From IMG/VR virus record IMGVR_UViG_3300015360_000087, positions 1-40,237 of that record: 40,237 nt of DNA, one strand, 5' to 3'. The notes under the pieces were generated by a model. The model was given only the letters and a program-made list of their open reading frames with translations, did not search any database and was not told the DNA's origin. Shown here piece by piece: positions 1,316-34,790 of this stretch. Origin of the DNA: a virus. The translations under genes and the position numbers were made by a program. Positions within the stretch are counted from its first letter, which is position 1. The number at the start of each line of letters is the position of its first letter.

Positions 1316-1621
1316 ATGAAAAATACATTAGCGCAAAAAGATTGTATGAAACGCTATCTACAGACAAATAAAGGTAAGCTAGCACAGGCTCGGTCGATGC
1401 AAAAATATTTTGCAAAAAAAGTTTTAGAGTTAGAATCTATAATAGCACAGGGGCAACAAAATGAAAAAGTTGCTACCGCAGAAGGTGCTATTTCTGTTGC
1501 TGCGGCAGGAATTGTAGGAGCTGTATTTAGTAGGATAACTGGGCGCTTACTATCAAAAACAGAGAGCATAATAGTAGCGACAGCAAAAACACGGGTCGAG
1601 AGAGGTAACACCAAACTTTAA
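1316..1621 (+). CDS. early protein carrying a fragment of the internal virion protein
   Basis: The gene encodes 101 aa after a GGAGAC ribosome site. Residues 1-50 are basic and helical with no recognised family. Residues 54-84 (EGAISVAAAGIVGA followed by GRLLSKTES) are nearly identical to a hydrophobic segment of the 1365-aa internal virion protein encoded on the other strand (21271-21362). The DNA agrees at about 83 of 92 positions. The segment has alternating small and hydrophobic residues and may insert into membranes. The C-terminus (TAKTRVERGNTKL) is unrelated to the virion protein. The gene looks like a chimera made by intragenomic transfer; whether it is functional is unknown. Confidence 0.5.
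   Translation: MKNTLAQKDCMKRYLQTNKGKLAQARSMQKYFAKKVLELESIIAQGQQNEKVATAEGAISVAAAGIVGAVFSRITGRLLSKTESIIVATAKTRVERGNTKL
1476..1567. repeat. 92-bp copy of internal virion protein segment (inverted relative to 21271-21362)
   Basis: By eye, bases 1476-1567 match the reverse complement of 21271-21362 with about 9 substitutions and no gap. The reading frame is kept in both genes, and the peptide differs at only a few residues (V/I, V/A, S/G, R/G, T/A). Flanking sequence is unrelated. The two copies form a long inverted repeat across the two arms. Confidence 0.85.
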
Positions 1622-2766: not shown

Positions 2767-3165
2767 ATGATTAATATAGAGTTAAAAAAAATTATCAAAC
2801 TACATAAATTGTGGCTTGGCGGTTATGCGGGCAGTTATGCGGGCGGTTATGCGGGCGGCATGCGGGCAGATTTAAGCAATATGGATTTACGCGATGCAGA
2901 TTTTCACGGCGCTGATTTACGCTATGCATACTTACTTGATACAGACTTACACGGCGCTGATTTACGCAATGCAGACTTACGCAGAGCGAACTTGAGCGGC
3001 GCTGATTTAAGAAATGCGGATTTACGCGGCGCGAATTTACTTAGCGCGGATTTACGCGGTGCTGATTTGCGCGGCGCGAACTTGTGTGGCACGGGTCTGT
3101 ACCATGCGCATTTGCAAGATGCGAAGATGCGGATTTACGCGATGTGCGTATGTAAGCAGAGTTAA
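2767..3165 (+). CDS. pentapeptide-repeat protein with tail frameshift
   Basis: The ATG at 2767 follows GGAAGGGGCGAAA; the upstream TTG at 2752 lacks a ribosome site. The 132-aa protein starts with the leader (M)INIELKKIIKLHKLWL, shared with the gene at 39581. Then comes a short repeat (YAGSYAGGYAGG, 12-bp DNA units at 2821-2856), then about 15 pentapeptides of A(D/N)LRxx type from residue 36 to 116. These form a right-handed quadrilateral beta-helix in known family members (MfpA, Qnr), some of which mimic DNA and bind gyrase. The last 15 residues leave the pattern, while another frame reads DADLRDVRM then stop, so a small indel has probably altered the 3' end. Confidence 0.75.
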   Translation: MINIELKKIIKLHKLWLGGYAGSYAGGYAGGMRADLSNMDLRDADFHGADLRYAYLLDTDLHGADLRNADLRRANLSGADLRNADLRGANLLSADLRGADLRGANLCGTGLYHAHLQDAKMRIYAMCVCKQS

Positions 3166-3189
3166 CAAACATAAAGGAGTCGCTCTAAA

Positions 3190-3531
3190 ATGACTAAAGC
3201 AGAATTAAAAATCATATTAGGTAAACATCTAGCTTATATTAATGAACACGAGGACGGCGAATTAGCCGATTTATCAAATACTGACTTACGTAATGTAAAA
3301 CTCAGTAATAAATACTTATGTCACATTGATTTTAAAGGGGCTGATCTTAGAGGGGCTAATTTATCAAAGTCTGAGTTAAAAGGGGCTGAGTTCGCTGGGG
3401 CTGATTTACGTAAGGCTAATTTAAAAGGAGCAAATTTACAAAGCGCTGGGTTAAAAGGGGCTAATTTACGAGGGGCTAATTTACGAGGGGCAAATTTAAG
3501 AGGCACTGAGTTCGAAGGTACAAAAATGTAA
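3190..3531 (+). CDS. pentapeptide-repeat protein
   Basis: The 113-aa protein starts after AAAGGAGTCGCTC. An N-terminal helical leader (MTKAELKIILGKHLAYINEH) is followed from about residue 26 by some 16 pentapeptides, increasingly regular towards the C-terminus (LRGANLRGANLRGAN). It is a paralogue of the genes at 2767 and 39581, with a more diverged leader and no DUF5758-like tail. It should form a right-handed beta-helix rod. Binding to DNA-mimic targets such as topoisomerases, or blocking of a host defence, is possible but not shown. It lies 24 bases after the previous pentapeptide gene. Confidence 0.8.
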   Translation: MTKAELKIILGKHLAYINEHEDGELADLSNTDLRNVKLSNKYLCHIDFKGADLRGANLSKSELKGAEFAGADLRKANLKGANLQSAGLKGANLRGANLRGANLRGTEFEGTKM

Positions 3532-7941: not shown

Positions 7942-8631
7942 ATGAAGCAAATATTATTACTACTAGTGATGTTGTGGACAACTTCTGGCTTTGCTTCAAC
8001 TTTGGAAGTAATGCCTGTACAAAACCCCAATATAATGACTATAGTGCTGCCGCCCGAAATTCGATCTGGCGCGTTTGACTTGTTGATTGCCGAACTATCA
8101 ATGAATAAATATGACGAAATTCATCTTCTCATATCCGGAGATGGTGGAAGCACTAATGCAGTTCTTGCTTTGAGTACCGCTTTAAGAGGCGCTAAAGATA
8201 AAGGCACAAAAATCACTGTAGATGTAACAGGCCCAGCGATTTCAGGACATGCGTTTTTAGCATGTACTGCTAGCGTGCCGGTCAAGATGCATCCGGGGTC
8301 TTCTGTTACATTTCATAGATCCGGTATTTATAGAGTTGCTTTGTACTTTTTTTACTACCGCGAATACCCAGTTGATCAAGCAGATTTGGTGGCAGAAGCC
8401 ACAATTATAGCTAGTTGCCTTCAAGCTGGGCTAATTACCGCAGATGATGTAACTGACATATATGCAGGCAAACGAGTTACTTATAGTAAACTTAGTGATG
8501 GATCTAAGCTTCACAGAGAAGTGTTAAACGATTATGCAAACAGTCCTCTGGAATGGCTTCGAACATTAGCAGAAATAGCAGTTTTAATATGCGGCAGTAT
8601 TGTCTTGGTTGGTATATGTAAGAGGGTTTAA
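7942..8631 (+). CDS. exported, membrane-anchored ClpP-like protein
   Basis: This 229-aa protein starts with a signal peptide (residues 1-18, cut near GFA/S). A ClpP-like core follows: SGDGGS (65-70, oxyanion region), GPAISGHAFL with the candidate nucleophile Ser101 in the same place as AASMG in ClpP, and TFHRSG with His125. The Ser-His spacing of 24 is close to the 25 of ClpP. A C-terminal transmembrane helix (about 211-226, IAVLICGSIVLVGI) precedes a basic end. The protease would face the periplasm, anchored by its tail. This recalls NfeD/SppA-type serine peptidases more than a prohead protease. It sits between replication genes, so a host-envelope role is inferred. Confidence 0.7.
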   Translation: MKQILLLLVMLWTTSGFASTLEVMPVQNPNIMTIVLPPEIRSGAFDLLIAELSMNKYDEIHLLISGDGGSTNAVLALSTALRGAKDKGTKITVDVTGPAISGHAFLACTASVPVKMHPGSSVTFHRSGIYRVALYFFYYREYPVDQADLVAEATIIASCLQAGLITADDVTDIYAGKRVTYSKLSDGSKLHREVLNDYANSPLEWLRTLAEIAVLICGSIVLVGICKRV

Positions 8632-9077: not shown

Positions 9078-9478
9078 TTAAGAAAATGGTTTATTTAGCC
9101 AATCCGTATACGTCTAAACTAAAAGACCCAGACGCTGTTGCATTACAGGAGTTGACGCGCCGTAATCTAGAGTCATATATAGGTGGCAAACTACGTAAAA
9201 AACACAATGTTGTTTTTATCTTACCAATTGCACTGTCTGCTGCAATGGCAGATATTTGTTCTTTTGGTACAGGGTTTGACGAATGGGCAGATGATGACTT
9301 TACATTCATTAGCCACTGCGATGAAATGTGGGTGCTGATGTCAGAAGGGTGGTCAGAATCGAAAGGTGTATTGGCTGAAATAGCATTTGCCAAAGAAAGA
9401 GGTATGCCTATTAAATATGTATGCCCAGATAAACTTGCGCTTTATAAGAATCCTTGCGCATGTGATGCAAGACTATGA
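9074..9478 (+). CDS. DUF1937-like nucleoside 2-deoxyribosyltransferase-fold protein
   Basis: The 134-aa protein starts KKMVYLANPYTSK and contains VFILPIALSAAM, CDEMWVLMSEGWSESKGVLAEIAFAKE and GMPIKYV. The YxAxPY start, the S-x-GV-x-E-x-x-x-A helix and the Rossmann-like order are typical of the DUF1937/nucleoside 2-deoxyribosyltransferase superfamily, where the Glu is catalytic. It may process nucleosides or modified nucleotides. It is coupled on both sides by 4-base overlaps, upstream to the DUF5664-like gene and downstream to the primase-helicase. Confidence 0.65.
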   Translation: MIKKMVYLANPYTSKLKDPDAVALQELTRRNLESYIGGKLRKKHNVVFILPIALSAAMADICSFGTGFDEWADDDFTFISHCDEMWVLMSEGWSESKGVLAEIAFAKERGMPIKYVCPDKLALYKNPCACDARL

Positions 9479-11229
9479 CTAAATTTGTAGACACTAAACC
9501 ACAGCCATGCCCAAAATGTCGTGCCGCAGGCAATGACCGCAAGGGCAACAATTTAACAACCTTACCTGATGGTAAAAAGTGGTGCTTCGCATGTCAAGAC
9601 CCCAAACTAATGGGTGAAGGGTTTGTTCAAGGTGACTATTATCCATTGGATGTTAATAAAGGGTGGCTTGCAAGAGGACTAAAACTAGAAACATGTCGCA
9701 AAGCAGACTTTCGAGTTGGACAATACACGGGCACTATGACAGACCCGCAGGCAGGTAAGTCTGTTAAAGTGGTTGATGAGTGGGTGCAGATAGCCACATG
9801 GCGCAATGATAAGAATGAGATCATAGCCCAGAAATTGCGCAATAGCAAAAAGTGGTTTAAGTTTTTAGGCAACGGCAAAGATTTAGATTTGTGGGGCGTA
9901 AATGACTATCAACCTACTGACAAACTTTTCATTGTCATCACCGGCGGGGAAATTGACCGGCTGTCAGTAATGCAGGCTTGCGGTCTTCAGTACCCTGTAT
10001 TATCCCCACCAACCGGTGAGGGCAGCGCATATAAAGCTATTAAGAAGAATTTAAAGTGGTTGATGGGCTGGAAATATGTAGTGCTGGCTCTTGATAATGA
10101 TGAGGCAGGCATTAAAGCAATGCAGAAGGCCGCAGAGCTGTTTGAGGTAGATAAGGTGCGAATTGCTAAATGGCCTGCCAAAGACCCTAATGAGCTTCTA
10201 CAAGAAGGCCGCAAAGAGGAGTTAGTGAGGGCTATATGGAATGCTCAGACCATTGAGCCTGATCATATAGTAACTATTAAAGACATATTGCCACAGGTGC
10301 TAGAGCAGCCCCAGTATGGCCTAGACTGGCCGTTTTCAACTATGACCAAGATAACCTATGGTATTCGTTTCAATGAGATCACAACGATTGTTGGGCCTAC
10401 AGGGGCAGGCAAGACAGAGATCATTAAAGATATTGTAAGTCATTGTTTAAATCACTTTAATGTGGCCGTATTCTCATTTGAGCAAATGCCTGCTGATACA
10501 GTGCGCCGGTATGTCGGGGCTAAACTAGGTGTTAAACTTCAAAAGCCCGGCGAGAAGTGGGATGCCAAGGCTATTGAAAAAACAGCCATGGAGTACAATG
10601 AAAAGCTGTTTCTATATGACTTTAACGGCACTGTTTCTACTGGTGACATATTTAAATGTATTAGATATCTAGCCAAAGCAAAAGGCTGTAAGCTAGTAAT
10701 TATAGATAATTTAAAATCACTTAAGATTGTGTTTAAAAAAGATGAAATTGCTGAGTTCGCTACATCTCTACGCTCACTGGTTAAAAGTCTAGGCATACAT
10801 GTAATACTAGTTTCTCATGTAAATAAAAATCAAATTAGGTCTAGTACGCATGTCGGCTTTTCATCTAAAATGCGCCAAGGCGAAAAACCCCACGAGAAAC
10901 TATCAGAGGATTTCATAAAGAAGACTATGAACAAGTTTCAAATCGACTGGGAGTCTGGTCGCATGGCAACAGAATCTGACATTGAGGGCGGTAATGATAT
11001 TGCTGCTATTAGTGATTATGTGTTCGCTATTGCTCGCAATAAGCAATCTGACAATGAGACAATAAGGCGCACTATTACTGTTAAGCCGTTAAAGTGTGGA
11101 CGTATTGATAGTGAATACAGCGCAACTAAATTTGATCTATATAGAGAAGATAGTGGTGCACTGCGAGAAGTGGAAAAAAGTGACTCCAAAGACTATACTG
11201 GGGATAAAGGCGAAGAAGGGGACTATTAA
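9475..11229 (+). CDS. primase-helicase (T7 gp4-like)
   Basis: The 584-aa bifunctional protein carries an N-terminal zinc-binding domain (Cys12, Cys15, Cys37, Cys40; CPKC and CFAC). The TOPRIM primase core follows (GGEID, Glu159; ALDNDEAG, Asp207 and Asp209). The RecA-like hexameric helicase domain has Walker A GPTGAGKT (307-314, Lys313), Walker B LVIIDN and the later VSHVNKN motif. It makes primers and unwinds DNA at the fork, loading with the family A polymerase encoded just downstream. The C-terminus is acidic (DYTGDKGEEGDY), as in T7 gp4, where it contacts the polymerase. Its length is close to that of T7 gp4 (566 aa). Confidence 0.9.
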   Translation: MTKFVDTKPQPCPKCRAAGNDRKGNNLTTLPDGKKWCFACQDPKLMGEGFVQGDYYPLDVNKGWLARGLKLETCRKADFRVGQYTGTMTDPQAGKSVKVVDEWVQIATWRNDKNEIIAQKLRNSKKWFKFLGNGKDLDLWGVNDYQPTDKLFIVITGGEIDRLSVMQACGLQYPVLSPPTGEGSAYKAIKKNLKWLMGWKYVVLALDNDEAGIKAMQKAAELFEVDKVRIAKWPAKDPNELLQEGRKEELVRAIWNAQTIEPDHIVTIKDILPQVLEQPQYGLDWPFSTMTKITYGIRFNEITTIVGPTGAGKTEIIKDIVSHCLNHFNVAVFSFEQMPADTVRRYVGAKLGVKLQKPGEKWDAKAIEKTAMEYNEKLFLYDFNGTVSTGDIFKCIRYLAKAKGCKLVIIDNLKSLKIVFKKDEIAEFATSLRSLVKSLGIHVILVSHVNKNQIRSSTHVGFSSKMRQGEKPHEKLSEDFIKKTMNKFQIDWESGRMATESDIEGGNDIAAISDYVFAIARNKQSDNETIRRTITVKPLKCGRIDSEYSATKFDLYREDSGALREVEKSDSKDYTGDKGEEGDY

Positions 11230-11718: not shown

Positions 11719-11910
11719 ATGAAGACAAAAAACAAACAGAAAAAATATAGTTCAGGCAATAAGCCATTGTTGTATAGAGGTGAACTAATTAAAATATTAA
11801 AGTCTATGCCGACTGCCGAACTTGAAACGATAGTCAAGAACAAACATGTAGATATTCCGCTAAGACGCGCCTATATACTAGCCAAACGTGAGCTACGGAG
11901 TAGACAATGA
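11719..11910 (+). CDS. 63-aa basic hypothetical protein
   Basis: A Lys-rich N-terminus (MKTKNKQKKYSSGNK) is followed by two helices (RGELIKILKSMPTAELE and PLRRAYILAKRELRS). The strong positive charge would suit nucleic-acid or polymerase binding. Its stop overlaps the polymerase start (ATGA at 11907), so it is translated just before the polymerase. No family recognised. Confidence 0.55.
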   Translation: MKTKNKQKKYSSGNKPLLYRGELIKILKSMPTAELETIVKNKHVDIPLRRAYILAKRELRSRQ

Positions 11911-13838
11911 TTTTAACCTGTCTTGATTTTGAAACTAAAGACCCCTATATTTCTCTAGAGCTAGGGGCTGGTTACCCTTTCGCGGTTAACTATGGAAGGA
12001 ATAGTCTGTTCTACCCCATTGGTTTCAGCTATTGCTTTATCAATACAGAGGATGGCTGTATTAGTAAATCAGAATATGTTGCATTAAGCACTAAACAACT
12101 TGTTGGTGCAGAAGATAATAATGCCGGATGGATTAAGCTGTCTTCTATTATGGCTCACACTGAAAATATTGTATGCCATAATGCTCAATATGATCTTGGC
12201 TGTTTGATGGCACTTGGCATTGATATAGACCATCTTAGAACTTATGACACCAAAGTTATGGCGCAGCTTAATGATTCGTCGTTGTGGTCGTACTCACTGA
12301 GCACACTATTAAAGAAGTATGATCTAGGTGAAAAAATGTCTGGTACTCTAGCAGACATTGTTAAAGAGTTCGATTTACTAAAGACGCCGGCAGGTAATAG
12401 TCCTGACACTGAAACTGCTACATATGCAAAGCGTGCGTATAAATTCGGTATCTCTAATATGGATCTGCTTCAGGAGTTGGATTTTGCTTCAGTGGCGCAC
12501 TATGCTAATCATGATACAATAGGTACGTCTCTACTTTTTAAATTCTTATTGCCTAGAGTCGGCGACAAATTAGCTCATTTCTATAGCAACATTCAAAAGA
12601 TATGCTGCAAGATACGTTGCCGAGGTGTTGTAGTAGATATGAATAATACAGATAAGGCCATTGAGATATTAACACCGGCATGTGAAGCACTGGAGCGCAG
12701 CCTCTATAAAGCCTTAGGAGATATTAATCTACAAAGCAATGACCAGCTGCCAGCCGCTCTTGTCAAACTAGGTTATAAACTACCATTAACTTCAGCAGGC
12801 AACCCATCGCTAAATAAAGAAGTGATGGAAGATATTTTGTTGACACTGCCTAATGATGAGTTAATTCAAACGATAGGCAAATGGCGCACTGTTCATATGC
12901 TGCTTCATAATTTTGCTATCAAGATTAAAAACATGCAGCAGTATAGCTGTCCTGAAGTGATGGCGGGAGGTAAATATGGTAAAGTATTCCCAGAGCTTAA
13001 GCTTCTGGAAGCAAGAACTGGAAGATTCTCAAGCAGTAATCCTAACATCCAAAATATACCAAAGCGAGATAAAGAGTTTGCAAAATTATGTCGTGCTATG
13101 TTTACTACTCATAGACGTAAGCATAAATGGTATTCACTTGATTGGTCGAACCAAGAAGGTAGGCTACAGCTTCACTATGCAACTCTTAAGAATTTCGCAG
13201 GTGCTGAGGCATGGCGCAAACGATTCATTGCAAACCCAAAAATAGATGTACACAGTATAGTAGGTGATATGATGGGCGGCGTGTCTAGAGATAAGGCCAA
13301 AGCTATTTATTTAGGTAAGTCATTCTGCATGGGTAAAGGCAAGCTAGCTAAAAGTCTAGGCCTGCCTACCACCATGATACAGACAGAGTATGGCCCGCAA
13401 CTATCCTCTGGCCCAGAAGCATCTAAACTTATTAATAAATATGAGCAGGCATTCCCTTACCTAACCCAGCTTCAAAAAGACTGTATGCAAGTCATACAAA
13501 ATAGAGGATATATCGTTACTTTAGGTGGTCGCAAATGTCAGCGCCCTCCTAGAATTAAAGGCAAGTTGTTTGATTATAAGGCAATTAGTTTACTGATTCA
13601 AGGCAGTGCGGCAGATCAGATGTATATGGCCTTAACTAAAGCTGATGAAGCTGGTATACTAATAAATTGTATCGTACATGATGAGTTCAATATCGAAGGC
13701 TCAATTGACGATGCATTGAAAATGCAAGAAATAATGGAAGTATGTGTTGATCTTAACGTTCCTTCTGTGGCTGAAGTAAAAGTCGGCACTAATTGGGGCA
13801 ACTTGGAGACAATCACTGATGAAACAAAAATTAATTGA
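11907..13838 (+). CDS. DNA polymerase, family A (T7 gp5-like)
   Basis: The 643-aa protein has a 3'-5' exonuclease domain: Exo I LDFET (Asp7, Glu9), Exo II HNAQYDLGCL and Exo III YANHD. The polymerase domain has motif A LDWSNQEGR (Asp412, Glu417), motif B RDKAKAIYLGKSF (Lys465) and motif C VHDEF (His591, Asp592, Glu593). It replicates the genome with the helicase-primase and SSB. Aligning KAIYLGKSF with E. coli KAINFGLIY puts Leu469 at the position of Phe762, where T7 has Tyr. The protein is about 60 residues shorter than T7 gp5 (704 aa). The start overlaps the previous stop by 4 bases. Confidence 0.92.
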   Translation: MILTCLDFETKDPYISLELGAGYPFAVNYGRNSLFYPIGFSYCFINTEDGCISKSEYVALSTKQLVGAEDNNAGWIKLSSIMAHTENIVCHNAQYDLGCLMALGIDIDHLRTYDTKVMAQLNDSSLWSYSLSTLLKKYDLGEKMSGTLADIVKEFDLLKTPAGNSPDTETATYAKRAYKFGISNMDLLQELDFASVAHYANHDTIGTSLLFKFLLPRVGDKLAHFYSNIQKICCKIRCRGVVVDMNNTDKAIEILTPACEALERSLYKALGDINLQSNDQLPAALVKLGYKLPLTSAGNPSLNKEVMEDILLTLPNDELIQTIGKWRTVHMLLHNFAIKIKNMQQYSCPEVMAGGKYGKVFPELKLLEARTGRFSSSNPNIQNIPKRDKEFAKLCRAMFTTHRRKHKWYSLDWSNQEGRLQLHYATLKNFAGAEAWRKRFIANPKIDVHSIVGDMMGGVSRDKAKAIYLGKSFCMGKGKLAKSLGLPTTMIQTEYGPQLSSGPEASKLINKYEQAFPYLTQLQKDCMQVIQNRGYIVTLGGRKCQRPPRIKGKLFDYKAISLLIQGSAADQMYMALTKADEAGILINCIVHDEFNIEGSIDDALKMQEIMEVCVDLNVPSVAEVKVGTNWGNLETITDETKIN

Positions 13839-17823: not shown

Positions 17824-20800
17824 CTATTTAAAATTATTCCTAATACCTTTCTTAAGCCACCATATATTTTGATATGGAATCAGCAACTTAAGTTGGTTCC
17901 ACGTCTTTGCGTCTATAGGTTTTCCTGCCATTTTACTTACTATAGCACGATAGATCGGATTAATGATAGAGGCACTAGGGCCAAGAATATAATCAGTTGG
18001 CTCATTTATCCATGCCTGCCCGCCAAACTGCTCCTTGGAAGAAATGGCTCGCTGGACCTGAAATGCTGGATCCAACAGCATACTTCCCACCCCTGATTTG
18101 TCTAGGCCTCTAATTAGCCACTCTTTAGCTGTATAGTCTGATATACGACCTGCCGCCTTATCTTGCAGAAGCTGAACTACCATACCAGCCATTGTCATAA
18201 AAACAATACCTTGAATGGCCTGACTATCATGGCGGCTGAGAGCAGATATAGTTATCTTATTAATGGCGGCAAAAGAGAAGCCTTTGCCTAATGCCATTGA
18301 TTTACGCATTTCACTTCGTTGAAAGAAACGCGGCATGTCTAGTACCTCTGTAATGATAGGTGATTTATGTACCTCTACACGTATAGCATTGTTAAATATA
18401 TCCGCAGCCTGTCTGTCTGACCACATATGGGAGTTCGAAATATGCGTACCTCGAACTTCTACACCGTACTTTTCTTGCATCTTCAAGATGGCCTTAGCTG
18501 CATCTTCATCAATACCTATTTCTTTTAAGTATGACACTCCTCTAGGGGTTGGATTGCGAGCATAGCTTAATATATTATACTCTGCCAGACGGTGACTTGC
18601 TCTCTGCCAGATTTGATTCCACGCAGTCATGCCAGTAACCTTCATCGACAGATTGCCGCCTATTTGACCAACACGCTCTATTGGCCCTGTGCCGTGTGGG
18701 GTCAGATCAGGGTTCATCATAAAGGCTTGAAGATCATCTATTTCATTTTGTATAGCAGTTAAAGCATTGCGATAATCTTGTTGTTTTAACTTGCTAGTAC
18801 GAGTAACGAATTGCTTAACGCCACTTAGCCATCCATGCATAACAGTACGCGGCAAGCCATTTTTTATCACACTGGCCAAAGGGTCGCCTACAGCAGAAAT
18901 CACAATAGATCCATACAGTCTTATTACATTGTATTGATTGATACTACGCCAAAACCCATCTGCTACTGTTCGTTTTTTAAATTGACCAAGACTAATTGCT
19001 GCAATATCATTAAAAAGTGCTTCAGACTTTATTGCCTGCCTGCTTAACTTTTTAATCATTGCAAGTTTTTTTTCTTTAGTTATAAAAGAGGCCCGTTCAG
19101 ATTTAGGCATAGCTTTAATTTGTTCTTTTGTAGCCTCTTTGACGTCGCGTATTTTCATAATCTGCATATTGTATGTGTCTCTAATTCTCAGCCTTACGTC
19201 TTGCAAAGACGTAGCACCTAAATCATCTAACATTTTCTTATAGTTGATAGCACGACTAGCACTGGCCAGATACATATGCATAACCTTATTAAAATCTTTT
19301 ACCAAGTATGGCTTCATAATCTCATAGGCGGCATTATTCATAATGACTTTACGAGGCTGTTTAGAGTCAGTTCCTTTCGTAAATGAAAGCCTGTCAATGT
19401 CACCTAAGGCCAGATTCTTATCACCCATTTGTAAAATATTGTCAACAGACTCAGAGGCTAATTGACGGGCTTCTAGTATATCTATATTGCCTTCGACTTT
19501 AACTGAGACAAGCTTTTCTCCATCCCTAGGTTGCCAGTCAATCTGTTTAGTATTAGTATCGTATATTGCATTTGCGTTTTTCTTCTTGCCTGTATCATCA
19601 GTATAACTGACAACAGCACGCCGCATTCTTACATATATTTTTACTAAAGCATTTTCTGCCCCAATTCTATCTGCCAAGATAGCCTTCATGTCATAAACTA
19701 TCTTGAACCAGTTTTTAAAAGGTGCTTGGTCTTTGTCTATAAGGCCTACATTCTGCATGTCTTTATATACTTTGTCTACTACATTGCGTGAGTATTTAGC
19801 CATGTTCTCTACTTCACGTATAGAGTGCCTATCACCATCATTCATTGCATCCATCACATACTCATTAAATTTTTTATACCGCACACCCTCAGCATAAGTT
19901 CGTTGTACCTGTGCAGTCATATCATTTGGATCAACCTTTAGATATCGTAGATATGCGTCCCTCATATCTTTATTAAAATCTAGTCCAACCAACATATCCG
20001 CTTGCATACGTGACTCTAATGAAATAGGTGCTGTAACTTGGCGGCCGGCACTGTCCTCAAGTCCTATATGCATATAGCCAACACGAGTAGTAAAATCACG
20101 AACAATAGGGCTAGCATCAACTAAGCCCTCTATGCTGACATTGCTTACATGTGGAATAGTCATATATTTTACAACCCAAGTCGGCAATCCTTTAATACGT
20201 GCGTCATAAGTCACATAGCCCGCATTTGCATTTTGTGTATTAACATCTAGCAATTTAGCATCTATTCCACTAGGTGCAAGAGCCTCTGCTAGTTCTTCTT
20301 CACTGACCATATTTACTTCATTTGGATTAATTGGATCTTTAATTTCACTACCATCAGCCATCACATTATCACTAGCTGCTATTCGTTCTTCCATAGATAC
20401 ATAACTATCTGGATCTTTTCGGGCTGCCAACTCTTTAGAAGTTGGTGGTGGCGTATGTTCATTTGTAATATCAAGTATGGCTTTAACTTCTATCATTGAT
20501 TGTTTGCGCGCAACAAGGCTTGAAGCTGCATCATCTGCGGCCTCTTGTTCAGTAGAATACAGCTTTTTCAGAGCATCTACTGTGCCACCTTTATAGGATG
20601 CATCTGCGGCCTCTTGTTCAGCAGAATACAGCTTTTTCAGAGCATCTACTGTGCCACCTTTATACGATGCATCTGCGGCCTCTTGTTCAGCAGAATACAG
20701 CTTTTTCAGAGCATCTACTGTACCACCTTTACCTTTATATTTAGATGCATCTGCGGCCTCTTGTTCATGTGCAAGCTCACGTTTCAATTCTGCTATCCGT

Positions 20801-21921
20801 TCTTCACGTGCAGCTGTTGCCTTTTGTTCATGTGTAGCAGAATATGGAGATGCATTATCTATTGCGCTATTTCTATAGTTAGGTGCAGCTGCATCACTTA
20901 CAGTATCAGCCTCGCGCTTCAACATTACCGACAGTTTTTCACGTGCAGTAGGGTCGGCAACTGCATCATCTGCCACTGATTGTTTTTGTGTAGCAGGGTT
21001 GGCAACTGCATCATCTGCGGCCTTTTGTTCATGTGCAAGTTCACGTTTCAACATTGCTATCCGTTCTTCACGTGCAAACGCGCCGGCACCTGCATCATCT
21101 GCTGCCGTTTTATATGAATCTGGATCATCTATTGTTCTATCTTTATAGCTAGGTGCAGCTTTGTCGGCAACTGCATCATCTGCTGCCGTTTTATATGAAG
21201 CTGGATCATCTATTGTTCTATCTTTATAGCTAGGTGCAGCTTTGGTGGCAACTGCATCATCTGCAAGTCTGCTCTCTGTTTTTGATAGTAGGCGCCCAGC
21301 TATCCCGCCAAATGCAGCTCCTACAATTCCTGCTGCTGCAATAGAAATAGCACCTTCTGCGGCAGTACGTTCTGGGTTGCCTGCCTGCAATATTGTTTCA
21401 GATACAGCAACTGCGCCTGCCGACATTGCGCCTGCCTGAATAGCAGTTCTAGCAGTGCTGACAGTTTTGGCCATTCTAGCAATCTTAACAGTACCTACTC
21501 CGGGAATAGCCAACATAGGATCAATTCCGCCCCATGCCATAGCAGACCAAAAAGCTGTTGATGGTGCACGTGCCGCAAGCTGGCCGTATTCTTCATCTTC
21601 ATTAAATTGCTTCATGCCAGCTTGAATTTCTTCTTCATTATCTGAGTTTACAAAATACTCTGGCTTGGATATATATTTAGTGCCCTCTAGTCGCGTAGCA
21701 ACATTAAAATCAGGATCAGTCTTAGTCCAGTCACCAATGCCATTATGAAATGCAGAAATATACCATGCATTGTTCTCGGCAGTGCGCTTCTGTAACAACG
21801 CACCTTCTTGAACAGATAAATCTTTAGGTTCGTCATATGCGGGCAGCTGGTCAGGTGCACCTTGATCGTGCTCTAATTGATTTAGGTTTTTTTGCTCGTC
21901 TTCTGGATTATATAGACCCAT
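17824..21921 (-). CDS. internal virion protein, T7 gp16-like, with internal repeats
   Basis: At 1365 aa this is the largest gene, in the gp16 position before the tail fibre. T7 gp16 (1318 aa) is ejected and forms part of the DNA-transfer channel. The N-terminus is polar; around residues 130-220 are hydrophobic, Ala/Gly-rich segments (AISIAAAGIVGAAFGG). Residues about 220-500 are filled with repeats: ADDAVADKAAPSYKDRTIDD units (27 aa) and YKGGTVDALKKLYSAEQEA units (23 aa), rich in Ala, Lys and Asp. The C-terminal 850 residues are non-repetitive and helical. No transglycosylase motif is apparent, so wall degradation may depend on the neighbouring M15 peptidase. Confidence 0.8.
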   Translation of the reverse strand: MGLYNPEDEQKNLNQLEHDQGAPDQLPAYDEPKDLSVQEGALLQKRTAENNAWYISAFHNGIGDWTKTDPDFNVATRLEGTKYISKPEYFVNSDNEEEIQAGMKQFNEDEEYGQLAARAPSTAFWSAMAWGGIDPMLAIPGVGTVKIARMAKTVSTARTAIQAGAMSAGAVAVSETILQAGNPERTAAEGAISIAAAGIVGAAFGGIAGRLLSKTESRLADDAVATKAAPSYKDRTIDDPASYKTAADDAVADKAAPSYKDRTIDDPDSYKTAADDAGAGAFAREERIAMLKRELAHEQKAADDAVANPATQKQSVADDAVADPTAREKLSVMLKREADTVSDAAAPNYRNSAIDNASPYSATHEQKATAAREERIAELKRELAHEQEAADASKYKGKGGTVDALKKLYSAEQEAADASYKGGTVDALKKLYSAEQEAADASYKGGTVDALKKLYSTEQEAADDAASSLVARKQSMIEVKAILDITNEHTPPPTSKELAARKDPDSYVSMEERIAASDNVMADGSEIKDPINPNEVNMVSEEELAEALAPSGIDAKLLDVNTQNANAGYVTYDARIKGLPTWVVKYMTIPHVSNVSIEGLVDASPIVRDFTTRVGYMHIGLEDSAGRQVTAPISLESRMQADMLVGLDFNKDMRDAYLRYLKVDPNDMTAQVQRTYAEGVRYKKFNEYVMDAMNDGDRHSIREVENMAKYSRNVVDKVYKDMQNVGLIDKDQAPFKNWFKIVYDMKAILADRIGAENALVKIYVRMRRAVVSYTDDTGKKKNANAIYDTNTKQIDWQPRDGEKLVSVKVEGNIDILEARQLASESVDNILQMGDKNLALGDIDRLSFTKGTDSKQPRKVIMNNAAYEIMKPYLVKDFNKVMHMYLASASRAINYKKMLDDLGATSLQDVRLRIRDTYNMQIMKIRDVKEATKEQIKAMPKSERASFITKEKKLAMIKKLSRQAIKSEALFNDIAAISLGQFKKRTVADGFWRSINQYNVIRLYGSIVISAVGDPLASVIKNGLPRTVMHGWLSGVKQFVTRTSKLKQQDYRNALTAIQNEIDDLQAFMMNPDLTPHGTGPIERVGQIGGNLSMKVTGMTAWNQIWQRASHRLAEYNILSYARNPTPRGVSYLKEIGIDEDAAKAILKMQEKYGVEVRGTHISNSHMWSDRQAADIFNNAIRVEVHKSPIITEVLDMPRFFQRSEMRKSMALGKGFSFAAINKITISALSRHDSQAIQGIVFMTMAGMVVQLLQDKAAGRISDYTAKEWLIRGLDKSGVGSMLLDPAFQVQRAISSKEQFGGQAWINEPTDYILGPSASIINPIYRAIVSKMAGKPIDAKTWNQLKLLIPYQNIWWLKKGIRNNFK
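20533..20766. repeat. 69-bp tandem repeats inside internal virion gene
   Basis: The anchor ATCTGCGGCCTCTTGTTC occurs at 20533, 20602, 20671 and 20749, giving spacings of 69, 69 and 78 bases. The copies are nearly identical and encode a 23-aa unit with the core GTVDALKKLYSAEQEA. The in-frame length and low divergence indicate recent expansion. Confidence 0.9.
21092..21264. repeat. 81-bp tandem repeats inside internal virion gene
   Basis: GCATCATCTGC anchors fall at 21092, 21173 and 21254, exactly 81 bases apart, encoding a 27-aa unit with APSYKDRTIDDP. The two full copies are almost identical. Scattered shorter relatives (GCATCATCTGC) recur down to about 20950. Confidence 0.9.
21271..21362. 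repeat. source copy of the 92-bp segment also found at 1476-1567
   Basis: The reverse complement matches 1476-1567 at about 83 of 92 bases. Here it encodes a hydrophobic segment of the internal virion protein just before its repeat block. Confidence 0.85.
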
Positions 21922-21923
21922 GT

Positions 21924-22334
21924 CTATCTCCTCAGTTCTACGTGCGCTACGTCAACAAAGTATTTAGTGCGACCAGCCAAATAGTCTACAAATCGTTGGT
22001 ATGGACTAGCCCACGTACCGCCCCAACGCAAGCCCGGATTAGATGCCTTCATACTTTCTACAACCTTGCCTTGGGCAATCCAATAAGCATGACTTAGTGG
22101 AACATTCCACATGTATCTTTTATCAACAATATCAGCAGCCATACCTGTTAAGTGATATGAGTTCATAGTGTGACTATATCCAAGACGTACCTTTTCACGT
22201 TGTTGTGATACAGTGCGCCTGCCTTCTGCGACAATAGGCTGGAACCCTTGAGCCTCTAGCTGTTTTAACACCTCTAGTACAATTGGCTTAAAGCGCGGTT
22301 CTAATGAATTAAATGCAGCATTAATTGTTGGCAT
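21924..22334 (-). CDS. M15-family peptidoglycan peptidase (endolysin)
   Basis: The ATG at 22334 has GAGAAGGG 9 bases upstream and is preferred to the GTG at 22343. The 136-aa protein has the M15 (VanY/L-Ala-D-Glu endopeptidase) pattern: EGRRTVSQQ, SYHLTGMAADIVD (zinc ligands His61 and Asp68) and DVAHVEL (His131). It should cut the peptide stems of peptidoglycan. It has no signal peptide. It sits between two internal virion genes rather than in a lysis cassette, so it could be either the endolysin or a virion-associated enzyme used during entry. It overlaps the previous gene by 14 bases. Confidence 0.75.
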   Translation of the reverse strand: MPTINAAFNSLEPRFKPIVLEVLKQLEAQGFQPIVAEGRRTVSQQREKVRLGYSHTMNSYHLTGMAADIVDKRYMWNVPLSHAYWIAQGKVVESMKASNPGLRWGGTWASPYQRFVDYLAGRTKYFVDVAHVELRR

Positions 22335-25300
22335 TGTTATCACCCTTCTCTTTTTTAGTTAGTTCAGCTAACGTAATTCGTTTTTCTAGCAAAGCTTTAA
22401 ACTTCTTCATAAACTCTTTAAATTTCGCACCCTCTGGCATTTGTCTATAGCCCTTAACATCTACCTTCATAATGCTAATAGTCTGGTCACCAACCTTAAT
22501 TTTAATCATATTAGGATTGCTACTATCTTCACCTACATAGCGACCAACTTGACCGTTGGCAACTACAACATCACCGGCTGCTGGTGAGCTAGTGGCCTTG
22601 CCGAAATTTAATCTCATCAGCAGGTCGCCTGCATCTACCTGCTGGCCATTACCTACATCTATTTGCTTACTCGCACTAGACAAAGTTGTAACAATCTTAT
22701 CAGGCGTTAAATCATCTACTTGAGATGTCTGTGATGAATCTGTACTGGCTTGTCCATTTCCTACAACTATATTGGGGTTAGTATCTTGTTTAGTTGCACT
22801 AGTAGCTTCTTTAATTTGATCCTTCATAGATGGATTAACATCCACCATTTCACCTGTCACTGGATTAATAACAGTTTTCTTGGGCTTATCATCAGCAGCT
22901 TTAAGTGGCTCATTAGTCATGTTATAAATATTAAATGATTCTTGTCCCGTACCTGCACGTGCTGCCTCTCCGGTATAAATATTAAATCTTTGCGGAGTCT
23001 GTTGAATAGATAAAGGCTTAGACTGTGATGCAAAGTTTTCTGGAGAAGGTAAAGTTCTATAGCCTTTTACATCTGAAACAGGAATAACACTAGGCACTAA
23101 TCCGTCCTTGCCATCCATTGACACTATTTGCACACCCATCTTGCCGCCCATGTTTACCATGCCTGCAAAAATACCGGCTTTATTAGCACTTACAACAATG
23201 TCACCCGCCGTTGGCTGTGTGGTGGCTTTACCATACTGCAAGTAAGTCTGTGGGTTGGAGTTATTAGTTAAAACAGAGTTGATTAATTTGACAGATTGCC
23301 CTACGCGCCATGATGATTTATCTGCACCAACCATTCTTTCAATAGCTGCCTGTACAACAGGTTTAGACTTACTGTCTCCCGGATACTGATCAGCAATTTT
23401 ACTAACATAACTTACCTTACTGACTCTATCAACAAGCTCTTGATTCATAGCAGGGTGTTCGCCATGCCCTTTAGTTGTTGTCATAGCCTTAGCAATTTCT
23501 GATGTATGAGCAACTTCCGGCTTTGCTACAATCTGTGGGTTTTCAGTATTAACCTTAGCATTGACCGCATTTACTCTAGCATTTTGAGTTCGTGCCTCTG
23601 ACGCATTGTCATACTTCCATCTGTCAGGTAGTAAAACCTCATGACCATCAGCATCCATATAATATAAGTAATAGCTAGGATTGCCTTTTTGTTTAAATTT
23701 AGCAACAGTTAAATCATCACTACCAACTAACACTTGGTCAGGTGTAACGCCATCCGGGAGTCTATCTGCTACTTCTGCATTAATAGACGCTCGTATTTCC
23801 ATGGCTGTAGCTCTGCCTGACAAAACAACCTCTGGTGGCAGAGCCATAATTGTATTGGCATCTATGCCGAAACGTGGAACAGTATTAACCTCACTATAGC
23901 CGACAAGGGTTTTGGTTTGATTTGCTACCATTTCTTTAGCAGCAGCCACATCTCCGGTTGCCATATAAGCATCTCTTAGTAAGGGCTTAATCATATCAAC
24001 AACTTGATCTGCAACTTGATCTGGGCCACGATACCAAGGATTGCCCTCTGGATAAATATCATTTGCAATAGTTGCTTTAATGTTATCATTTGAGAAATCT
24101 GATTCTTCATTAAACCCATTCCTGCGCTGCTTTTCAGTTTTTACATCAACGTTATAAACCGAATCTTTAATTCTTTGGATGTTTTCGGTGCTTAAACCTT
24201 CTGACGTATATTTATAAGAGTTAGATAGGGCTGACACATAAGCAGTAAACTTCTTGTCTTTTATACCTGATAACACTAATGGGTTTACAGACTGTAATTT
24301 GTTATATGCAAATACAGCTTCTTCAATTTTTTTAATACTGCCACCCTCAATATCAGCCTGTAGTCCACGGGCTAAAGATTGTACCGGGCCTTTGTACTCA
24401 GCAGCAAGAGCAATTCTGTCACCAATTGGCACATTAGTAGAACCATCAGGTGACAAACTTCTTAGTCTGTTTTGGTAATGATCGTCAATCTCTCCAGCAG
24501 AGAAGCTGGATAGATTTGACCCTGCCTGCATATCAGCAGATAGATTTGTACGTGTCTGCCAAGTTTTGTCTACCTTTACATTGGTTTTAGTATATTGTTC
24601 AGCAAGTTCAGAGTATTGCTTAAATGTGATCTTGCCTTTATCATATGCTTCCACAATTTGTGCAGTATGCGCTTCGCCTTTAGTTATGCTGTCAGACAAC
24701 GAAGATTTAGCTAGCTGAGATTGTGCTTGCTCTACTTCGGCCTGCGCCTTATACTGTAATTTATTTAAAGTATTTTGATCTTGTAAAGCAAACTTATTTT
24801 GCTTATTTAAGTTATCATACTCAATCGACGTTAAATTAAGTTCATCAGCAGTTTTAGAAGACAGTAACTGTGCCACAGAATTAGGGTCGCGCTGATTGGC
24901 TACCTGTAACGAGCCTAAAAATAAACCACTTCTAAGCTTATCACCCATTTTAGCAGCTTGTATAGGGTCAATAGTGCCAGCCTGCACCCCTGCTTGAATT
25001 CTATCTAAGCCTTGACTTGCATAAAAACCAATGTTGTCTGGTGAATCAATTAAACCACTCTGAATATCTGTATCAAGAGCATCTGTGAGGGCAGAGGTAG
25101 AATTATCAATTTGCATATTTCTTTCTTGTGCATTCGCCATGACTTTGTGGTTGGTATTTAATTCACCTAGTGAACGAGACATCTTTTCTTTAGCAACAGG
25201 ATCTTGTACAGCTTCTGAGTATTGTTTAACAACACCCTTTGAGATTCCATCTAACTCACCTGCTAAAGTTCCCGGCGCACTGTATCGCGCTGACTGAACA

Positions 25301-26372: not shown

Positions 26373-28810
26373 TATTCTGTCCCTCCTTCAATGCTTCCAA
26401 AAATTCCCAATAAAGTCATAGGCAGCGGGCCACTAAAAGAAATAGTTAAGTTTGAATTAAATCCCTCTTTCCATGTTAGATTACCATACTTTACATCGCC
26501 TGTGAATAGCCCCAGACTACTGTTCATTTTATCCTGCGGGTCGCGCACAGGCACTTCTTCGGTGTTTACTGAAGGTAGGGCAGACTTATGAAATCTTAAA
26601 ACAGGTTTAACCCAACGAGCTTGTTGTCCTTGCTGTGACCCTACCCCAAGGCTGTACTCTCTAGGCAATGTGACAATGGTGGTGGTGTATGGCAGCCCCA
26701 CAGTGACTTCATATGCACGTCTGTCAAGAGTTATCGCACCAGAACTAACTGTTTTATTTGTATGGGTTGCGCCATCAGTTTTTACCTGAACCACCTTCCC
26801 TTCTAAGTGCGACAGTCCTGATATTGTAGTCACTAGCTTATGCACTTCCCCGCCAGTGGTATAAGTTGTATATGATGTTGTAGCAACAGCTACACCACCT
26901 TCAGTATTTAATTCAAATGTATTAGTTGTCTTATTAGCCACTTTATACACAAGGCCAATCACCTCAGTCATACCACCCACCTCAATCATCTTAACTAAAT
27001 CACCATTAGAAAAACCATGTGCAGCTGCTGTAACTACCCCTGTGCTAGCTTTAGTTATTGCAGTAACAGTTTTGGGTAAGGAGTATGATAGATAAGAGTC
27101 ACTAAAGCCATCAATATTGTCTTCACCTGTTGAATAGTCTAATCTTTCAACATATCGTTTGGTGGCTCCGTTGATTGTGCGCTTAACTATAACCCATACT
27201 TCATCATTGCCACCAGTAGAAATAGTTTGCACACTTTCAAAAAGGCCATCGGTTGTCCACTTAGTCCACGCAGTAACTTCTTGTTCGCGTATATATGTAC
27301 ATGCCAACATGTCGCCATCATTTAATACAACAAATAAGATCCTATCCGGGTCTTGCGCATAAGCAATTTCTTTAATGCCTGCCTCTGATAAATGCTCTGC
27401 AAGAAACAACAAATCTTCGCTGACGTAATTATCTATTTGAAAGTCGTATCTAAAAGCACTAATTTTTCTACCCGACCTTTGTACGTAAATTACTTGGTCA
27501 TCAAGTGCTACAGGCTGTTGTAGATTAGATCCATGGTAGCCGCGCACTTGTTGTGTTATGTTAGATGGTGTTAATGCATTTGATGAAGACCCGCCGTCAA
27601 TTGTAACCTCTGCACCTGTTGTGCCAAACACCAACTGCCCACGAATAGTGGCGGCCCATGAAATCTTATTTACTTCTGTGCCTGACAACTCGAAGCTCAA
27701 TGAATCACCGTCACGTGAGCCTATGCCCATTGAGTCAAATATTCCAGATTCAGAAGCCCATATAGTTTGTGGGTCATGACTGGTGCCTGCTGCAAATAGT
27801 CTTTGTTGATGTAATGTACCTACAGACGGGTATCCGTATACACTTGACCATATGCTTTCCTCTTGTGTCCAGTTGCTTGTTGCGGTAACAGCATCTAAAG
27901 CCTTCTGTATTTCCCCAATTGCCAGCACATTTGATACTAAAGATGTAACTAAAACTACACCATTGTGTAATAGCACATATTTACCTACATCTCTGGGTGT
28001 GCTAATCCATGTATTAGCTGCGGCAGTTAAATTTACCATAGAACCTTCACGTGATGCACTTGGTGTAATAGATACTATAGGGGATAAATCCACCTTCCAG
28101 TTGTTTTGTGCAATCGCAGCAGTGCTAGGAAATGCTTGTAGGATAGTACATACCACAATATAGTTGCTAGTAAATGAAGTGATAGATGCCTTGCCTGTGC
28201 CTGCCAGATTATGAATTTGTCTACCAACATCTGATGCTTCAAAGAAAATCCCAGACGCAGTAAAATTTATCCCTGTACCACTAACGGCAGCAGGGGTTAC
28301 TGTCCCTGTTGGTTTATATCCTTCTTCACTTGATGCAGATGGATAGAATGAAGTAGTAGTTAAAGCCCAAACTGCATCACTTGTCCACGTCAACTGTGCA
28401 GGTGCGTGTGATCCATGAAATAAATAAAGAATGCGCCCAAACTGCACATATGTAATATCTTTTACTTCTGTTTGTGTATATGTAGTAACTACAGTATATG
28501 GCACGCCTCCGCTTGATATCTGTCCACCGTCTTTGTAAAAACGAATATATAGATCACCGAACTCTAAAATATAAGCATTATCTTGATCGAACTGAAACCT
28601 AAGAAGTCTACTTACTTTAGCACTATCTTTAGTTGCTTCAATTTGCTCAAAACCATTTCTGCGGCGCAGTGGGCCGTGTGGCAAAACAATACAATTCTCA
28701 GCAGTTTTAACTGCATTCTTGTACTTTGCAATATCAACATGTGCCCACAGACGAGGTGTTATTTCACCTGCTGTAAAGTTGGATTGTATTTGCTGTATTT
28801 TATTAGTCAT
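26372..28810 (-). CDS. tail tubular protein B / nozzle (T7 gp12-like)
   Basis: The 812-aa protein opens with QSNFTAGEITPRLWAHVDIAKY, NCIVLPHGPLRRRNGFE and LRFQFDQDNAYILEFGDLYIRFY. This is the conserved N-terminus of podovirus nozzle proteins such as T7 gp12 (794 aa), which form the tail tip below the adaptor ring. The rest is beta-rich, including a Thr/Val-rich insert (YKVANKTTNTFELNTEGG). Start and stop overlap the neighbours by one base. Confidence 0.85.
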   Translation of the reverse strand: MTNKIQQIQSNFTAGEITPRLWAHVDIAKYKNAVKTAENCIVLPHGPLRRRNGFEQIEATKDSAKVSRLLRFQFDQDNAYILEFGDLYIRFYKDGGQISSGGVPYTVVTTYTQTEVKDITYVQFGRILYLFHGSHAPAQLTWTSDAVWALTTTSFYPSASSEEGYKPTGTVTPAAVSGTGINFTASGIFFEASDVGRQIHNLAGTGKASITSFTSNYIVVCTILQAFPSTAAIAQNNWKVDLSPIVSITPSASREGSMVNLTAAANTWISTPRDVGKYVLLHNGVVLVTSLVSNVLAIGEIQKALDAVTATSNWTQEESIWSSVYGYPSVGTLHQQRLFAAGTSHDPQTIWASESGIFDSMGIGSRDGDSLSFELSGTEVNKISWAATIRGQLVFGTTGAEVTIDGGSSSNALTPSNITQQVRGYHGSNLQQPVALDDQVIYVQRSGRKISAFRYDFQIDNYVSEDLLFLAEHLSEAGIKEIAYAQDPDRILFVVLNDGDMLACTYIREQEVTAWTKWTTDGLFESVQTISTGGNDEVWVIVKRTINGATKRYVERLDYSTGEDNIDGFSDSYLSYSLPKTVTAITKASTGVVTAAAHGFSNGDLVKMIEVGGMTEVIGLVYKVANKTTNTFELNTEGGVAVATTSYTTYTTGGEVHKLVTTISGLSHLEGKVVQVKTDGATHTNKTVSSGAITLDRRAYEVTVGLPYTTTIVTLPREYSLGVGSQQGQQARWVKPVLRFHKSALPSVNTEEVPVRDPQDKMNSSLGLFTGDVKYGNLTWKEGFNSNLTISFSGPLPMTLLGIFGSIEGGTE

Positions 28811-29421
28811 TATGAATCTCTTAAACGACTTTCATTAGGAAATATAGAATTTCTTGCATCAATAAATGTATCAGAATTTATATCTGATGAACTACTGGAT
28901 GCAGTACCTGCCTGAGCCAATAAGTCTTTAGCGTGATCCATAGCATAAGACAAAGCAGCTTTATATGAAGACAGCTGGCCTGTTTTTGAATAGATCAATT
29001 CCGCTGTTAGTCTATCTACCACAGCTTGTTGTAAGTATATATCATAAGCATTTACATCTGTAATTAAGGCAATATAATAAATATTTATAGTGGCCTCATC
29101 AGTAAGAAGTTGGCTACCCTCGATTACATAAGGAGTTTGACCGGCCTTAGTTTCATTGATACTAATTAGTTTTAAAAGTTTTGGATTAGTTGGCAGTGAG
29201 TAAGCATAACTAAATTCAAATGCAGGGGCAGTTGCTAGTTGTGCTAAAGCAGCCCTTCTGCGGCATGATGGCCATGCGCCTAAACTCATTACTTCCTCGG
29301 CAATTAAATCATAAATAGCAGAACAATCTTTTGCTTCTACAGTAGCATCAGTCAGTGCTGTAATGCGAGAAGCAGCAATTCTAGTAAGAGCTAAGTTACA
29401 AATCTGAACTTTAGAACTCAT
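28810..29421 (-). CDS. tail tubular protein A / adaptor (T7 gp11-like)
   Basis: The 203-aa protein (T7 gp11 is 196 aa) has the usual pattern of the adaptor family: VQICNLALTRIAASRI, YDLIAEEVMSLGAWPSCRRR, FSYAYSLPTNPKLLKL and a C-terminal helix ending in a polar tail. It forms the ring between portal and nozzle. It starts right after two tandem intrinsic terminators, so its expression relies on readthrough or on a lower-level transcript than the capsid. Confidence 0.85.
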   Translation of the reverse strand: MSSKVQICNLALTRIAASRITALTDATVEAKDCSAIYDLIAEEVMSLGAWPSCRRRAALAQLATAPAFEFSYAYSLPTNPKLLKLISINETKAGQTPYVIEGSQLLTDEATINIYYIALITDVNAYDIYLQQAVVDRLTAELIYSKTGQLSSYKAALSYAMDHAKDLLAQAGTASSSSSDINSDTFIDARNSIFPNESRLRDS

Positions 29422-29435
29422 AAAAAAGCCTCTCT

Positions 29436-29477
29436 AAAAAAATAATGGGCCATTTATAGATAACTATATTTGACCCA
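29436..29477 (-). terminator. intrinsic terminator with U-tract (second of a tandem pair)
   Basis: On the minus strand the stem TGGGTC/GGCCCA (one G-U pair) encloses an inner ATAG/CTAT stem with a TTAT loop, followed by TTATTTTTTT. It lies between the decoration-like gene and tail tube A. Confidence 0.7.
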
Positions 29478-29484
29478 CTAAAGA

Positions 29485-29507
29485 CTGGACAACAATTAGT
29501 TGTCCAG
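29485..29507 (-). terminator. hairpin terminator overlapping the stop of the decoration-like gene
   Basis: The perfect 9-bp stem CTGGACAAC/GTTGTCCAG with a 5-base loop is followed on the minus strand by TCTTTA. The stop codon lies in the loop. With the next hairpin it forms a double terminator downstream of capsid and decoration genes. Confidence 0.65.
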
Positions 29508-30020
29508 CGTACCTGTCACAACCATTGTGATTGTTCCAGCAGCACCTGTTGCAGCAGCTGCTGTAACAGTTAAAGCTATATCCAACATAACTTGCGGATC
29601 TGTTGTATATCCAGCTAACTCCCATGCAGTCTTACCAATATCTGCAATATCATGAGCTTCCATAGCTACATTTACACCAGCAGTATTAGCAGCGTTTAAG
29701 GTTGTAATAGCAGATGCCAATCCATCAGCATCTTTAACAGCCCCAGTTACAGCATTATAGAAACCAACATCTACGGCAATTAAAGGTGTGGCGTGTGTGT
29801 CTAAATCATCGTTAAAAATATCACAACGAGTAATTTTCAACCTAGATGGTATTCTAATCATTTTAATAATGTCACCAACATCATCTATATTTGTAGTAGC
29901 AACTTCAATAGTTTCTGTATATTGACGAACTTTACCGCCTTGGTTTGCACCTTGGCGTAGTGTTACAGGTACAGCATCAAAGCCTGTGATGCTAGCAGAT
30001 TTTACGGTTGCAGCGGCCAT
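29496..30020 (-). CDS. capsid decoration or head-fibre-like protein
   Basis: The 174-aa protein follows the capsid gene by 15 bases and shares its promoter and terminators, so it should be made at high level. It is beta-rich with Thr/Ala/Val (TETIEVATTNIDDVGD, TVTAAAATGAAGTITM) and lacks catalytic motifs. This fits a small structural protein that decorates the head, or a minor capsid protein. No family is assigned with certainty. Confidence 0.6.
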   Translation of the reverse strand: MAAATVKSASITGFDAVPVTLRQGANQGGKVRQYTETIEVATTNIDDVGDIIKMIRIPSRLKITRCDIFNDDLDTHATPLIAVDVGFYNAVTGAVKDADGLASAITTLNAANTAGVNVAMEAHDIADIGKTAWELAGYTTDPQVMLDIALTVTAAAATGAAGTITMVVTGTLDN

Positions 30021-30035
30021 ATGTCACCTCTTGTA

Positions 30036-30938
30036 TTATGTTCTGTAGCATTCAATTGAAACAACTTTTTCTTCTTGACGTCTTACTGCACCGATATCCA
30101 TAGCACCATAGACTTGAGTCGAGTATCGCTTATCATCACGTTCACTGACACGCACATTAATGTCACGACCAGTAGCAACCCCAACAGCAGAAGGAACAAA
30201 CACAATCGCACGAACAAAGCCAGCAGCATCTTTGTGGATGGTTTGTGCAAGTCTTTCACACCACACAAAACGAAAGCCCATAAAGGTACTAACTTCACCA
30301 GCAACCAAAGCTTTGACTGTATTATAGTCGGAGCTGGTTACAGAGGTTTCACTAAGCAGCCCATCAGTTAAAGCAGCACCGTCATGGACACATGTTGGTA
30401 CTTCAGACTGAAGGTCTACATTGTTCTGCATAAAGACTTTCTTGGCAGCACGCAATTTAGCAACAATAAGATCGCTATTAGCAGTACCAATATCTTCATC
30501 AATGATTTGTCCTGATGGCAGTACCACTGAAGATTGAGCATCAGCACTGTCAACAGCATAGGCATCACCATAAAGAGCAGCCAAGATAATATCATCTGCT
30601 TTGCGACCTAGGGCCATTGCAATAGATAATGAATATTCACTGGTTGGGTCAATAAGCATACGCACCTTATCTGAATTGTCGATTAATTCTGCGGCATCAA
30701 ATGTGCGCAAAATGCAACGACGACGAGAGTGTGCAAGGTTTAAGGGATCAGGGGTATCACCATGACGGGTTAAAACTTCAGATGCTTCACCTGAGCCTAA
30801 TCTATCAAAATGAGTATATTTACCTGTAATTTTTTCTGGTCTAACTACTGGAAGTAGCATAGAGCCTTTTTGTTGAACTAGCAATTCAAGATTAGCTTTA
30901 AATTGCTGTACAAATGCAACATTAACTGTACTAGACAT
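30036..30938 (-). CDS. major capsid protein
   Basis: The ATG at 30938 follows AGGTG by about 7 bases; the GTG at 30947 is part of that site. The 300-aa protein begins VAFVQQFKANLELLVQQKGS and contains ILRTFDAAELIDNSDKVRML, DPTSEYSLSIAMALGRKADD and GFRFVWCERL. This pattern belongs to the HK97-fold capsid family PF19821 (Phage_capsid_2), found in podoviruses and siphoviruses and distinct from T7 gp10. It lies between scaffold and decoration genes and has its own promoter, leader and terminators. Confidence 0.85.
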   Translation of the reverse strand: MSSTVNVAFVQQFKANLELLVQQKGSMLLPVVRPEKITGKYTHFDRLGSGEASEVLTRHGDTPDPLNLAHSRRRCILRTFDAAELIDNSDKVRMLIDPTSEYSLSIAMALGRKADDIILAALYGDAYAVDSADAQSSVVLPSGQIIDEDIGTANSDLIVAKLRAAKKVFMQNNVDLQSEVPTCVHDGAALTDGLLSETSVTSSDYNTVKALVAGEVSTFMGFRFVWCERLAQTIHKDAAGFVRAIVFVPSAVGVATGRDINVRVSERDDKRYSTQVYGAMDIGAVRRQEEKVVSIECYRT

Positions 30939-31106
30939 AGTATTCACCTATAAACTAATTAATATATGAAGCTAATTAGCATGTCCAGATTGCCCTTGCG
31001 GATCAGGAGTTTGCATTTGTCTATATCATGGACTCTTGCGAGCTACCCACTACTTCGACGGGAACCTAGGGTGCTTCTAACCCCTATAATTCCGTTATTA
31101 TAACCC
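30939..31106 (-). promoter_or_regulatory. structured 5' leader of the capsid mRNA
   Basis: About 160 bases without a gene separate the capsid promoter from its ATG. Pairings seen on the transcript: GUCCA/UGGAC (31029-31033 with 30983-30987) closes a domain containing a hairpin with a GCAA loop (30988-31004). A second stem pairs 31041-31048 with 31069-31075 (7 bp, one bulge), and next to it CUC-GCAA-GAG (31033-31042) gives a second GNRA tetraloop. A perfect palindrome GCTAATTAGC is at 30971-30980. Two GNRA loops and a long-range helix suggest a folded leader affecting stability or translation. Confidence 0.5.
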
Positions 31107-31135: not shown

Positions 31136-31139
31136 TAGG

Positions 31140-34462: not shown

Positions 34463-34463
34463 A

Positions 34464-34763: not shown

Positions 34764-34790
34764 ACTATAACCTCTTTAAAAACACAAACA

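Follow-up and report, generated by a model that had tools for sequence, protein, structure and literature searches.

Internal virion proteins of the T7 gp16 kind belong to the ejectosome (PDB 7EYB and 7K5C). In T7 gp16, residues 243-410 constitute a putative membrane region, TMH I, for which entry into the inner membrane is assumed (PMC8954989). Interference with ejection proteins of the gp16 type is possible in principle, for which P22 SieA provides a precedent: according to the abstract of PMC10883804, this inner-membrane phage protein stops the ejection proteins gp16 and gp20 from delivering DNA. However, SieA is expressed by a prophage and is not described as a gp16 fragment in that abstract.

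Phage mosaic genes, which are ascribed to illegitimate or relaxed recombination, are the other described case to which the locus studied here can be compared. Blocks in such genes usually come from other phages or prophages. The block described below was found in the linear virus record IMGVR_UViG_3300015360_000087 of IMG/VR, of metagenome source (40,237 bp; the whole stretch analysed, hereafter the window), and it shares with mosaic blocks the sharp edges, the lack of homology outside them and the presence in one genome only. In contrast to usual mosaic blocks, its nearest copy belongs to its own genome, where it forms part of an unrelated late gene of opposite strand.

Genome organisation

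The gene organisation of the window is that of a T7-like podovirus, with early and replication genes on the plus strand and structural genes on the minus strand, the plus-strand genes being presumed early from this layout. On the minus strand, the order is portal, capsid, tube A and B, a protein of 242 aa, a protein of 1107 aa, an endolysin-like protein, a gp16-like protein of 1365 aa and fibre, which is the same kind of order as in T7, with tail tubes, gp14/15/16-like proteins and a fibre. The coordinates of the main features are collected in Table 1. Moreover, two ClpP/protease-like proteins were found on the early strand (145-717 and 7942-8631), both with weak matches to PHROGs annotated as head maturation or ATP-dependent protease.

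Table 1. Features of the window relevant to the shared block.
Feature	Position	Strand	Basis or remarks
Recipient ORF, 101 aa, basic, predicted helices 5-49 and 55-99	1316..1621	+	ATG, AAGGAG-type site, tight spacing
Block captured from the gp16-like gene, small-ORF codons 55-84	1473..1568	+	blastn 89.6%, codon comparison
Helicase-primase	9475-11229	+	
Family-A DNA polymerase	11907-13838	+	
gp16-like internal virion (ejection/ejectosome) protein, 1365 aa, without fused transglycosylase domain	17824..21921	-	phrog_16310, phrog_342, T7 gp16 profile match
In-frame repeat expansion within the gp16-like gene, 69-bp x 2.9 and 81-bp x 2.2 tandem units	20489..21264	-	
Donor block (about residues 187-217 of the gp16-like protein)	21270..21365	-	Family alignment: native gp16 sequence

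A block shared by a small early-strand gene and the gp16-like gene

A sequence-only reading of the window had reported a 92-bp stretch (1476-1567) that recurs at about 90% identity as the reverse complement of 21271-21362, both copies being in frame, and had taken it for a piece of the giant internal virion protein within a small early gene. All of this was borne out: 83 of the 92 positions were identical (90.2%), codons 55-84 of the small ORF match codons 188-217 of the minus-strand ORF in the same reading frame, and the latter encodes a gp16-like protein according to both PHROGs and the T7 gp16 profile. In self-blastn, the whole block comprised 96 bp (1473-1568 on the plus strand against 21365-21270) at 89.6% identity (E 1.9e-30), and its ungapped extension reached 105 nt at 87%. 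The homology ends at the edges of the block, as anchored extensions to the left and right scored no higher than shuffled sequences. The two copies, 19.7 kb apart, form a long inverted repeat, which has no parallel among the long-range repeats of the window if the pentapeptide-repeat paralogues are set aside.

When donor and copy were compared over 30 codons, 22 were identical, 3 were synonymous and 5 were changed. The differences (A/G, C/T and A/T) run in mixed directions and eight of the nine are transitions. An origin of the pair as the repeats of a diversity-generating retroelement was ruled out, the differences not being concentrated at the adenines of one copy, and so was an ancient paralogue maintained by gene conversion, since the flanks align no better than shuffles.

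The gp16-like identity of the donor rests on its family matches, its N-terminal homology to the TMH I region and the place of its gene, behind those for the tail tube and the gp15-like protein. Its C-terminal half matches phrog_16310 (1.1e-37) and phrog_342, 'internal virion protein with endolysin domain' (6.4e-31), while a profile of its N-terminal region (A3) matches residues 316-374 of T7 gp16 (7EYB; E 8.4e-6), inside TMH I, and also a further solved chain, Gp29. Over the N-terminal region, an alignment was obtained with gp16-like proteins from nine other phages or viral contigs, namely Manatee Spring phage, TL-2011b, EC.W1-9, Microcystis phage Mwe-JY08, Alteromonas phage ZP6, Vibrio phage 1.138.O and the uncultured viral contigs L010, L011 and L070. 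In this family, an invariant core (DP...P...E..L......R) is followed by a Gly/Ala-rich hydrophobic stretch, the conserved pattern at the donor region being ...E..LQ.tQ.tRTaeEs..nIa...i...lGG. The captured block corresponds to the hydrophobic stretch directly after the invariant R184, at the end of the conserved N-terminal hydrophobic region of the donor; it lies just past the aligned part of T7 gp16 and within the alignment to Gp29. Since the block is at home there in the whole gp16-like family, the copying proceeded from gp16 to the small gene.

Two differences from T7 gp16 were found in the donor, namely the lack of a fused transglycosylase domain and a long insert, rich in repeats, that follows the TMH I-like region. 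This repeat-expanded part, for which no match was found in the aligned relatives, begins a few bases after the end of the donor block. Furthermore, a separate endolysin-like ORF (21924-22343) precedes the gp16-like gene, and the peptidoglycan-cleaving function apparently resides there instead of being fused as in T7. The AlphaFold model of the donor region (pLDDT 46) was too poor for use.

The recipient protein and what the copy kept

The recipient ORF is one of a series of small genes with tight spacing, and its codon-usage score (0.19, against a 99% value of 0.04 for random sequence) is coding-like, as is the codon usage of its N-terminal part and of the captured block taken separately. A two-helix hairpin was predicted by AlphaFold from the single sequence (mean pLDDT 81), and in this model the second helix begins at the first captured codon, so that the captured piece would make up most of it. 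No relatives of the 101-aa protein were found in the viral contigs, the 18 related records, the genome contigs, INPHARED (tblastn, E up to 1), plasmids (DNA search), Pfam, PHROGs, PADLOC or the PDB; in particular, the PADLOC models gave 0 families, with no match to a known anti-phage defence protein.

The captured piece, which the sequence-only reading had called membrane-active, originates in a hydrophobic part of the donor with homology to T7 gp16 around TMH I, and the copy is slightly less hydrophobic and less membrane-favourable than the donor. As to an integral inner-membrane protein of the SieA type, Kyte-Doolittle analysis gave a peak of 1.69, but membrane insertion was not predicted by a simple biological-scale sum, which is positive. 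Moreover, the invariant E174, L177 and R184 of the gp16 family lie outside the copy, the GG of the nearest relatives L010 and L011 and of the Manatee Spring phage reads SR in it, and its score against a family profile built without the window's own sequence was 8.7 bits, compared to 13.7 for the donor. The absence of these invariant residues, the altered GG, the lower score and the lower hydrophobicity argue against a well-preserved ejectosome decoy. The nine differences in 90 bases correspond to an N:S ratio of 5:4 (P 0.35 under neutrality) and to NG86 values of dN 0.08 and dS 0.18 for the block, on tiny numbers; purifying selection was not detected, nine substitutions being too few to measure selection.

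Rarity among relatives

Neither 85 related loci (1.18 Mb) nor 17 near-complete related genomes (648 kb) contained a similar ectopic repeat, and the chimera itself was not found among these relatives. The repeats present in those 17 genomes were only terminal overlaps, one 80-bp repeat (Escherichia phage TL-2011b) and two of about 26 bp. When motifs from three other phages were used as tblastn queries, the motif appeared at exactly one place per phage record (56/56, 54/54 and 2/2), in about 58 phage records altogether. None of 19,248 stop-to-stop ORFs was another small ORF with the motif, the weaker matches being capsid-sized ORFs, and a degenerate DNA pattern for the block had no match in the viral contigs. 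Such copies are rare in these sets, and this one appears from the sequences compared to be lineage-specific.

Protein queries with gp16, helicase, the ClpP-like protein and the phosphoesterase retrieved no close kin from the viral contigs. The only close relative is contig L003 (99% identity), which covers 28340-38013 only, with neither copy within it, and which carries an extra 158-bp tandem duplication of 34652-34809 (about 3187-3502 in L003). In the open literature searched, no precedent was found for phage early genes made from ejection-protein fragments.

Origin and possible role of the chimera

The explanation judged probable is a recent capture within the genome, specific to this lineage, through recombination of the illegitimate or annealing type in a genome prone to duplication; it would have yielded a chimeric, predicted helical early protein, probably without a dedicated function. 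About 96 bp of the phage's own gp16-like gene, or of that of a close congener, would have been copied into the small early gene in inverted genomic orientation with the sense reading frame kept; the gp16 gene of another phage could also have been the source. The copying would probably have gone through illegitimate, annealing or microhomology-based recombination, or through a switch of template in replication. An exonuclease and a gp2.5-like ssDNA-annealing protein are among the products of the phage genome, and its tendency to duplication is seen in the tandem gp16 repeats beside the donor block and in the 158-bp duplication separating L003, with all of which an annealing or template-switching copying error fits. 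The product would be a 101-aa chimera whose second helix is mostly ejection-protein sequence, and the captured stretch would most likely serve only as a generic hydrophobic or amphipathic helix, or be tolerated, with no imitation of the ejectosome. An accident of recombination, which had been the second option of the sequence-only reading, fits better than its first, superinfection exclusion by subunit mimicry.

According to the mimicry proposal, an early chimera in or near the inner membrane would poison the assembly of the ejectosome of an incoming phage of the same type. The provenance of the fragment from near TMH I, its in-frame position in a gene on the early strand and the ability of SieA to block ejection through gp16/gp20 speak for it; the E..L......R motif is absent from the copy, the GG has become SR, the membrane-favourable character is reduced, purifying selection is not detectable in the block, no similar case was found among the relatives searched, and the likeness to SieA stops short of a gp16 fragment in the abstract of PMC10883804, the copied motif of the small ORF being degraded besides. 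Mimicry is therefore very unlikely, and the chance is slighter still that a decoy peptide from the phage's own ejection-protein membrane region disturbs incoming ejectosomes of the same kind, with exclusion gained through gene-fragment capture. A low but appreciable probability is given to recruitment of the captured helix for another selected early function unrelated to ejection, such as membrane association, oligomerisation or binding of a host protein. A selected role is possible, as the reading frame runs unbroken through the block and the codon usage of the intact ORF is coding-like; the hairpin model and the Kyte-Doolittle peak point the same way, and the positive biological-scale sum weighs against membrane insertion.

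An assembly artefact, which the sequence-only reading had named among the things that would undo its finding, is unlikely. That a contig joined the gp16 fragment of a co-occurring phage into the early region might be suspected in a metagenome virus record whose junctions are found in no second genome, but it is hardly credible, as it needs two joins about 96 bp apart, both in frame and both within a single uninterrupted ORF that belongs to a tight operon and has coding-like codon usage; moreover, the copies differ by 10% (9/92 bases), far above the strain divergence of about 1% of L003. A role of the shared block as DNA or RNA, either as a recombination target or as a decoy, has a probability close to nil: the inverted repeat is able in principle to recombine, but an inversion across it would break gp16, Rfam gave no match, and antisense pairing of its transcripts is not expected because both have the same sense.

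The locus is a clean example of a familyless phage early protein assembled partly from the phage's own structural gene, and it is relevant to the origin of the numerous small, unrelated early genes of phages. Interference of the protein with ejection, if it occurred, would represent a new route to superinfection exclusion.

Other repeated sequences in the window

A 30-bp match between the gp16 repeats and 36837-36866 was dismissed, as it covers the terminase Walker-A region in a different frame. Two tandem paralogous small ORFs were found at 34464-35114 (blastp E 1e-11), one of them with a 9-bp x 7.6 repeat; the additional 158-bp duplication of L003 falls in this region. A duplicated segment (38728-38812 and 39291-39386; 69 bp at 96%) lies upstream of or at the starts of two plus-strand ORFs. 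Near both contig ends, pentapeptide-repeat sequences were detected (2767-3531 and 39599-40029) with a common 43-bp start of 93% identity. Furthermore, two adjoining near-perfect tandem arrays (26 bp x 5.6 and 23 bp x 3.3) lie between small early genes at 1829-2059; their units have no other occurrence within the window, and the arrays are possible replication-origin iterons or regulatory sites.
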